This document shows, in pieces, positions 15,913 to 17,836 of a DNA stretch of 64,000 nt. The translations under genes and the position numbers were made by a program. Source of the stretch: Aquificota bacterium (GTDB lineage Bacteria; Thermosulfidibacterota; Thermosulfidibacteria; Thermosulfidibacterales; B14-G1); assembly GCA_015486015.1 (NCBI GenBank), contig WFSL01000024.1, positions 105,780-169,779 on the forward strand. Reading direction: 5' to 3'. Position 1 is the first letter of the stretch. Each line of letters begins with the position of its first letter. A model generated the notes under the pieces. That model saw nothing but the letters and a program-made list of their open reading frames with translations. It had not been told where the DNA came from and ran no database searches.

Positions 15913-16332
15913 CTATTCTTCTCCCTCCTCAAGTGGAAGGGTCTCCAGCTCCCTCTCAATTAGGGCTTGGTAGTCGCTGGCATCCATAAGCCTCTTGAGT
16001 TCCTCTGGGTCTTCCATCTCTATCACAGCAATCCATCCTTCCCCATAGGGGTCGTCATTTATGATGGATGGGTCATCCAGCAAGAAGCTATTAACCTCGG
16101 TCACTCGCCCAGATAGGGGCGCATAGATCTCTGTAACGCCTCGGATGGACTCCAAGGATCCTATCACTTCCATCTGTTGTACCCTCATGCCTACCTCAGG
16201 CAACTCCACATAGGATATCTCTCCCAGCTCATTCTGGACGAACTCGGTAACACCCATTACCACTTGGCCTTCCCCCTCTTGCCTCACCCACGAGTGCTCC
16301 CGTGTGTACAATAAATCCTCTGGAAACTCCAT
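15913..16332 (-). CDS. GcvH-like protein lacking the lipoyl lysine
   Basis: By fold and length (139 residues) this is a glycine-cleavage H protein: LLYTREHSWV, VMGVTEFVQNELGEISYVELPEVG, IYAPLSGRVTEVN, NDDPYGEGWI and the C-terminal LMDASDYQALIE all match. The lipoyl-attachment segment, normally ESVKA, reads ESIRG: residue 64 is Arg (codon at 16143-16141), not Lys. Lipoylation at this site is therefore impossible, and it cannot act as a classical H protein. No gcvT or gcvP is nearby. The start was set at ATG 16332, which has GAGGAGG upstream; an ATG at 16398 would add an unrelated 22-residue leader. The function is unknown. Confidence 0.88.
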   Translation of the reverse strand: MEFPEDLLYTREHSWVRQEGEGQVVMGVTEFVQNELGEISYVELPEVGMRVQQMEVIGSLESIRGVTEIYAPLSGRVTEVNSFLLDDPSIINDDPYGEGWIAVIEMEDPEELKRLMDASDYQALIERELETLPLEEGEE

Positions 16333-16453
16333 TGGCCACCTCCTCAGTTTCCCAAGGCCTCTGTTCTTAATACATACCACGCCCTTTTCCTGGGCCATTA
16401 GAGCTGAGCTAAATATAAGTATATCCCTTGAATAGAGGCTTCAAGGGGCGTAC

Positions 16454-17836
16454 TCACAGCCTTGTTATGAATGCCACGGCCTCCTCTCTGTTTCTTACCT
16501 TTCCTTCCTCCTGAGCCTCTACCAGTGCCTTCAGGATTTCGCCCACCTTGGGGCCGGGAGAGAGACTCAAGATCTTCATCACCTCTTTTCCATTGAGCAG
16601 TGGACGCTGCATCCTCTCGTCGGAGAGGAAGGTGGTGTAATAAAAGGATAGCAGCTCTTCTACCTTGGGGAGGAAATAGAAGAAACCCCTCTCTCCACTA
16701 CTTGCCAAGGTGTCAGCCAGGGAGAGGAGGGCCACCAACACCCCCTTGTCGCCCAACCGACGGAAGAATCGTCCCTTGGCCTTAGGGGTTATTACATCCT
16801 GTCTGGCAAGCAGATGTATCCACATGTGGTGTGCGATCAAGAGGGAGAGGAGGGTAGAGGCGTTTGTGCCAAGGCCTAATCTCCTCCCTATCCCTTTCGC
16901 TATGACCCCACCCTCCCTGTCGTGTCCCCAGAAGGTGAGATCCTCTCCCCTCTCTGCCATGGTTGGTGGCTTGCCTATATCGTGTAAAAGGGAGGCCAAC
17001 TTGAGCACAACCCCCATAGAGATGCCTCCCTCTACTTTCTTCTTCAAGATGCCTTTCATCCTGAAGGTGTGGTTGGGAAAGAGGTAGCTTAGGAAAGGGA
17101 GTATCCGTTCCAATGCCTTGAGGGTCCCCAAGAGGTGGCCTTTAAGGTCTGTACCACACCACTTCCCCTGAAGGATGCCCCGTCCTTCCTCTACCTCAGG
17201 GAGGAGGTGCGAGAGCGCACCACAGGCATCCATTGCATAGAATGCCTTTGAAGACAGGGGGTGGCTCAGGATGAGGGATAGCTCCTCCCTGATGCGTTCA
17301 GGGGCTGCCTGGGGAAGCAGGTGGGCATCTCGTCTCAGCATCTCTAAGGTATCAGGGGTAGGGGAAAAGCCCAGTAAGAGGGATAAACGGTAGGTCCTGA
17401 GCAACCTAAGTGGGTCTTTTTTGAAGGTCCACGGTGTCAAGGCCCTTAGCCTCCTCAACCTCATGTCCCGTCTCCCCCCCCACGGATCCGCCAGTTGCTT
17501 TTGAGAGAGGGAGTAGGCCATGGCGTTAACGGTGAAATCCCTCTCTTGAAGGTCCTCTTCCAGTGTGGGAGCCTTGGGAGCCGAGATGTCTACCTGATAC
17601 CCACCGCATATAGCCCGATAGATGCCTCTCAGGGGGTCCAAAGGGAACCATGGGCAAGGCATCCCCTCAAGGAGATCCAAAGGATTGCCAAAGTACAAGA
17701 GATCCATATCCTTGGAGTCCCTCCCCAATAGAAGGTCTCTTAGGAACCCCCCTACCAAGAAAAGGTCCCCTTTAGATCTGGCCTGAAAGGAGGCCAAGAT
17801 CCTCCATGCCTCTTTTGGTATCCGGTCTTCCATCAT
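16454..17836 (-). CDS. CCA tRNA nucleotidyltransferase / poly(A) polymerase family protein with HD domain
   Basis: A 460-residue class II nucleotidyltransferase. The head motif is FLVGGFLRDLLLGRDSKDMDLLYF (residues about 25-48), with the G-G-RD pattern and the DxD metal aspartates. ERDFTVNAMAYSL and DPLRLLRTYRLSLLLGF are the ATP/CTP-recognition and neck motifs. A C-terminal HD phosphohydrolase domain is seen as ASLLHDIGKPPT, FWGHDREGG and LIAHHMW. CCA-adding, A-adding and poly(A) polymerase activities share this layout, so the exact activity is not fixed. It is divergent from kdsC with a 56-bp gap. Confidence 0.85.
   Translation of the reverse strand: MMEDRIPKEAWRILASFQARSKGDLFLVGGFLRDLLLGRDSKDMDLLYFGNPLDLLEGMPCPWFPLDPLRGIYRAICGGYQVDISAPKAPTLEEDLQERDFTVNAMAYSLSQKQLADPWGGRRDMRLRRLRALTPWTFKKDPLRLLRTYRLSLLLGFSPTPDTLEMLRRDAHLLPQAAPERIREELSLILSHPLSSKAFYAMDACGALSHLLPEVEEGRGILQGKWCGTDLKGHLLGTLKALERILPFLSYLFPNHTFRMKGILKKKVEGGISMGVVLKLASLLHDIGKPPTMAERGEDLTFWGHDREGGVIAKGIGRRLGLGTNASTLLSLLIAHHMWIHLLARQDVITPKAKGRFFRRLGDKGVLVALLSLADTLASSGERGFFYFLPKVEELLSFYYTTFLSDERMQRPLLNGKEVMKILSLSPGPKVGEILKALVEAQEEGKVRNREEAVAFITRL

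Follow-up and report, generated by a model that had tools for sequence, protein, structure and literature searches.

Here, we identify the only H-protein (GcvH) of a bacterial lineage as a protein that has lost its lipoyl lysine while the H-protein fold has been kept under strong purifying selection. The gene lies in the window, i.e., the whole 64,000-nucleotide stretch of DNA analysed here, which comes from a genome of 1.62 Mb that is 97% complete. A familiar carrier protein thus seems to have taken on a new task for which no cofactor is needed. We tentatively suggest, with somewhat more doubt than conviction, that the lipoate-free H-protein fold was kept to serve as a non-catalytic partner of another protein, perhaps in connection with tRNA maturation. 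The H-protein is regarded as a lipoyl carrier, and proteins such as these are still given the name "glycine cleavage system protein GcvH" by annotation profiles; the presence of a gcvH gene is not evidence of glycine cleavage. Strong selection on the fold after loss of both the pathway and the lysine, together with similar losses in other lineages where lipoylation enzymes were not detected, implies that the H-protein scaffold has a function for which lipoate is not needed. The open-access literature searched, outside of which most subscription journals lie, yielded no published account of a lipoate-free GcvH clade or of a link between GcvH and the CCA-adding enzyme.

The gene and its immediate surroundings comprise the following features:

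15913 to 16332, minus strand (complement, stop codon included): gcvH-like gene encoding 139 amino acids, with matches to PF01597 and TIGR00527.
16141 to 16143, minus strand: codon 64 at the lipoyl-lysine position, CGA (Arg64), reading TCG on the plus strand.
16333 to 16453, minus strand: spacer of 121 nt separating the stop of cca from the start of gcvH.
16338 to 16345, minus strand: likely ribosome-binding site of gcvH, GAGGAGGT, from direct reading of the DNA.
16454 to 17836, minus strand: cca, CCA-adding tRNA nucleotidyltransferase/poly(A) polymerase family with an HD domain, assigned by PolyA_pol, PolyA_pol_RNAbd and HD matches and by synteny.

The original prediction of a full-length GcvH match at 15913 to 16332, which did not mention the minus strand, agrees with both profiles: Pfam GCV_H (PF01597) scores 137.9 bits over profile positions 1 to 121 of 122, and NCBIfam gcvH (TIGR00527) scores 145.8 bits against a cut-off of 115.85. 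The start at 16332 is favoured because it has the ribosome-binding site GAGGAGGT and a conserved N-terminus; an ATG further upstream, at 16398, would add 22 residues that the relatives do not share. The lipoyl site reads ESIRG versus the canonical ES[V/I]KA/T. Reading of the codon confirms the predicted Arg64, and the accompanying claim that at least two base changes separate CGA from AAA or AAG is correct.

The fold around the site is intact. An AlphaFold2 model of the window protein, based on an alignment of 26 window and locus proteins, has a pLDDT of 92.7, and this predicted model superimposes on the Thermus H-protein (1onl) with 0.7 Å over 127 columns. In the model, Arg64 occupies the turn of a hairpin (strands 56 to 62 and 66 to 70), the place of the canonical lipoyl lysine. 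All 71 of the GcvH rows that were compared from other phyla have Lys in the lipoyl column, in a set that left out two Lys-less proteins (L074 and L077), an atypical one (L095) and a split one (L075). Compared to these rows, the lipoyl column is the striking change in the phylum, and most of the remaining differences are conservative substitutions. Residues that are structurally invariant have been preserved (including H13, W15, G27, G37, E61, P72, N81, N92, G99, W100, L115 and Y121), in line with the prediction that the surrounding fold residues are conserved. As for the two Lys-less proteins left out, one (L074:5989-6393) is from a Syntrophaceae genome and has Ala at the site while its close relatives have Lys, and the other (L077:5995-6390) is from a Bacillota genome and reads ESLDGE.

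Multiple observations indicate that the window protein is lipoate independent, and we consider this highly probable. First, the protein (P0001) contains a single lysine, K113, and no cysteine; K113 is located toward the C-terminus, well away from the hairpin, and is unconserved in the other genomes of the phylum. Second, the partner enzymes of glycine cleavage were not found: the window's genome has no GcvT and, in searches covering it, no GcvP (GDC-P), and GCV_T is above the cut-off in none of the nine phylum genomes. Third, the same is true of lipoylation. LipA is not above the cut-off in searches of the window's genome, the LplA/LipB domain (PF21948) is missing from that genome and above the cut-off in none of the nine, and the 2-oxoacid dehydrogenase E2 acyltransferase is above the cut-off in none of the nine either. 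Some further matches were set aside. The other PF01597 match in the window's genome (L002) is a biotin carboxyl carrier-type protein and not a second GcvH; by sequence reading, a weak LipA match in that genome is a BioB-like (biotin-synthase-like) radical SAM protein, and weak LplA/LipB matches in two genomes of the phylum (G007 and G008) are BirA-like biotin ligases. The original prediction noted that gcvT, gcvP and lplA are not nearby; this stands and extends to the whole of the window's genome, where family searches detected none. Its suggestion of a partner of a lipoyl ligase is unsupported because no such ligase was found. Given the single lysine, the lack of cysteine, and the missing pathway and ligases, a role as a lipoyl carrier is very unlikely, and the phylum apparently lost both glycine cleavage and lipoate attachment, as far as gene content tells.

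These genome-wide absences rest on family searches, which can miss divergent ligases. A divergent LplA/LipM-like (lipoate ligase/octanoyltransferase-like) protein is encoded beside a Lys-bearing gcvH in an outside genome (G173; L119:4301-5080), and PF21948 missed it, which calls for caution on absence claims. Together with the Lys at the site in one relative (G008), such escapes are what would speak for a protein that still bears lipoate or a similar group, attached at another lysine or by an unrecognised ligase. We regard this as very improbable in view of the position and poor conservation of K113 and of the absence of E2, GcvT and LplA/LipB above the cut-off in nine genomes.

The lipoate-independent reading is reinforced by how the site has evolved within the phylum. 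Our sample comprises nine genomes from three families; the public records that match them describe metagenome-assembled genomes filed under Aquificota, Thermodesulfobacteriota or "bacterium", and the names of some suggest that they come from hydrothermal sites. Eight of the nine encode one GcvH each, and the ninth genome is 71% complete. At the lipoyl site, six of the eight proteins have Arg, one has Trp (TGG, in G005) and one has Lys (AAA, in G008). The window's family contributes five of the Arg codons (CGA, AGA, AGG, AGA and AGA), and G006 contributes the sixth (AGG). Thus, non-Lys residues are clade-wide in the phylum bar G008, whose Lys counts against the lipoate-free reading. In a tree of 91 rows that is short and weakly resolved, seven of the phylum proteins form one starred clade with the long-branched G005 protein nearby. 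A Lys-bearing second gcvH was sought in the window's genome and not found.

Two further explanations can be judged from these data. One is that codon 64 is a sequencing or assembly error, a concern that arose while Arg was reported from a single genome. The original prediction held it unlikely; it is now excluded because six genomes carry Arg, the independent ones using different codons (CGA, AGA and AGG), and we give it practically no credence. The other is that gcvH is left over from a glycine cleavage system that was lost and is now itself decaying, as the loss of the pathway and of the acceptor lysine and the presence of Trp in one relative and Lys in another might suggest. However, among the closest genomes (genus g2), NG86 gives a dN of 0.036 to 0.071 and a dS of 1.13 to 1.75, i.e., a ratio of ∼0.03 to 0.05, figures that come from close pairs only, YN00 being saturated for many pairs; in comparisons with the other members of the window's family, saturation is reached at synonymous sites, whereas protein identity is 76 to 79%. 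The gcvH frames are intact in all eight gcvH-bearing genomes, and the structural invariants are kept. The low dN/dS and the preservation of Arg through different codons argue for purifying selection rather than decay; pseudogene decay is rejected on dN/dS, and the relic explanation has hardly any chance of being correct. Altogether, the clade-wide non-Lys state, the low dN/dS, the lack of a second GcvH and the failure to detect GcvT, GcvP, LipA, LplA or LipB bear out the original proposal of selection for a lipoate-independent role.

Lys-less GcvHs also recur in unrelated lineages, a point that the original prediction missed. Among 290 genomes, 41 have no LplA/LipB match. A GcvH search of 29 of these, all from outside the phylum, gave some Lys-less proteins, with Arg (G251), Glu (G283 and G191) or Ser (G154), and others that have Lys. 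By contrast, in the 39 comparison genomes where LplA/LipB is matched, the best GcvH has Lys without exception. Counted by family, Lys-less proteins occur in 7 of 13 families without LplA/LipB and in none of the 39 that have it (Fisher p = 1.3e-5, for families that are not fully independent and a sample drawn for other purposes). In the weakly resolved tree of 91 rows, the state changes between Lys and non-Lys at least seven times.

The neighbours of these genes vary. In G154, the Ser-bearing gcvH lies 21 nt downstream of sepS (O-phosphoserine-tRNA ligase; 451.8 bits, cut-off 380.65) and is followed by moaC (L116:5768-7678); in G251, the neighbours are transaldolase-like and AMP-ligase-like genes. 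G283 and G290 belong to one class of another phylum; the two GcvHs found there carry Glu at the lipoyl position in by-eye and program alignments, and the gene order is efp-gcvH-TPR-cca (the name efp in G290, like uvrA, kdsC and lpt below, being from sequence reading or similarity to window genes). A tRNA theme among the neighbours (cca and sepS), spotted post hoc, is suggestive. Two side observations concern further GcvH-type proteins. In family f110, the site is Arg (ESDRM) in one genome and Lys (KSDKA) in its relative (L113:6718-7146 and L114:6515-6913); both have the same transaldolase-like and AMP-ligase-like neighbours and no LplA/LipB match. Moreover, three loci (L120:4520-8828, L121:5309-7690 and L122:133-5283) each encode two or three clustered proteins with a GcvH domain that are longer than usual (∼210 to 410 amino acids), in the vicinity of response-regulator and ferredoxin-like genes. 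Most of these proteins have a hydrophobic stretch at the N-terminus, and several carry a QDGG(L/M)P-type motif at the C-terminus and no clear ES-K lipoyl motif.

A clue to what the retained H-protein does may lie in its neighbour. The original account of the gene's context missed a conserved pairing: in eight of eight gcvH-bearing phylum genomes, from three families, cca immediately precedes gcvH on the same strand. The two frames overlap in G005, G006 and G008 (two of the three families) and are separated by 46 to 155 nt in the other five genomes, which form the window's family. In the window, the neighbourhood consists of uvrA, cca, and kdsC-like and lpt-like genes. On the far side of gcvH, uvrA is found in the window's family and other genes in the other families; upstream of cca lies a divergent kdsC-like gene, or an unrelated gene in G005. 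Because the flanks differ, cca-gcvH is the only adjacency common to all three families. At a first set of gcvH loci from outside the phylum (flanks of 1.5 to 6 kb), no cca was convincingly found beside gcvH, with one partial match of 26.6 bits at L012.

The constant pairing makes the CCA-adding enzyme the leading candidate partner, and the acidity of the window protein (pI ∼4.05) favours protein-protein contact over direct tRNA binding. We suggest that an ancestral H-protein, which docked onto several partners, would have been retained after loss of the lipoyl arm and of the pathway, and that it may now be a small, very acidic, non-catalytic binding protein. Its partner could, with less certainty, be the CCA-adding enzyme. 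Co-transcription, in some species with overlapping frames, would provide the two proteins in a fixed ratio, and the H-protein would bind or regulate the CCA enzyme in tRNA 3'-end maturation or repair. Judged from gene order, this cca link is suggestive only. A more specific version, in which the CCA-adding enzyme has the lipoate-free H-protein as its dedicated accessory subunit or regulator and the same recruitment occurred at least twice in unrelated lineages after loss of lipoylation, strikes us as unlikely; if true, a fold known from a metabolic carrier would act in tRNA maturation.

Alternatively, the H-protein fold was repurposed without lipoate for a function unrelated to the CCA enzyme, and the pair is a two-gene transcription unit that has stayed together for the sake of expression or, the phylum being small, by chance. 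This explanation has nearly as much for it as against it. Operon neighbours may be paired for expression alone, the phylum sample is nine genomes, the spacers of 46 to 155 nt fall in five of the eight genomes, a TPR gene separates gcvH from cca in G283 and G290, and other Lys-less GcvHs adjoin other genes (sepS in G154; transaldolase-like and AMP-ligase-like genes in G251). Conversely, cca-gcvH is the sole adjacency retained across all three families, with overlapping frames in two, and a second, unrelated class has cca in an operon with a Lys-less gcvH. The suggested non-catalytic partner role has the merit that it names the CCA-adding enzyme as a testable candidate.

The window protein differs from the known proteins closest to it. 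It is not a biotin carboxyl carrier protein, having ESIRG and no MKM biotinyl motif, and the BCCP-like protein of the genome is the separate gene L002. NCBIfam names two GcvH-related sets that are not the standard H-protein, TIGR03077 "not_gcvH" and NF045810 "GcvH_rel_desulf"; membership is rejected at 68.8 bits (cut-off 144.05) and 43.7 bits (cut-off 150), respectively. The GcvH-L system of SirTM/macrodomain operons is lipoylated and encoded with LplA, sirtuin and macrodomain genes. GcvH-L (PDB 5A35; Mol Cell 2015; PMC4518038) is likewise encoded outside a glycine cleavage operon and has the same fold but far weaker similarity (23% identity), and we reject this identity because the neighbours in the window are uvrA, cca, and kdsC-like and lpt-like genes and the genome has no LplA domain. 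LbpA of the sHdr sulfur-oxidation system is a GcvH homologue reused outside glycine cleavage, with a strictly conserved lipoyl Lys and two conserved Cys, although some archaeal ones are without the Cys pair (eLife 2018; PMC6067878). The window protein is not an LbpA, having no Lys at the site and no Cys; seven of the eight phylum proteins are without Cys, and the immediate neighbours of the window gcvH are cca and uvrA. The protein is most like GcvH itself (Thermus 1ONL and E. coli 3AB9), with which it shares full-length homology, fold and structural invariants and from which it differs in having Arg64 for the lipoyl Lys and in a genome where the P and T proteins and the lipoylation enzymes were not found. 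Altogether, the sequence comparisons identify the window protein as a GcvH by descent and fold, yet one that departs from GcvH in its acceptor residue, its partner enzymes and its lipoylation enzymes.
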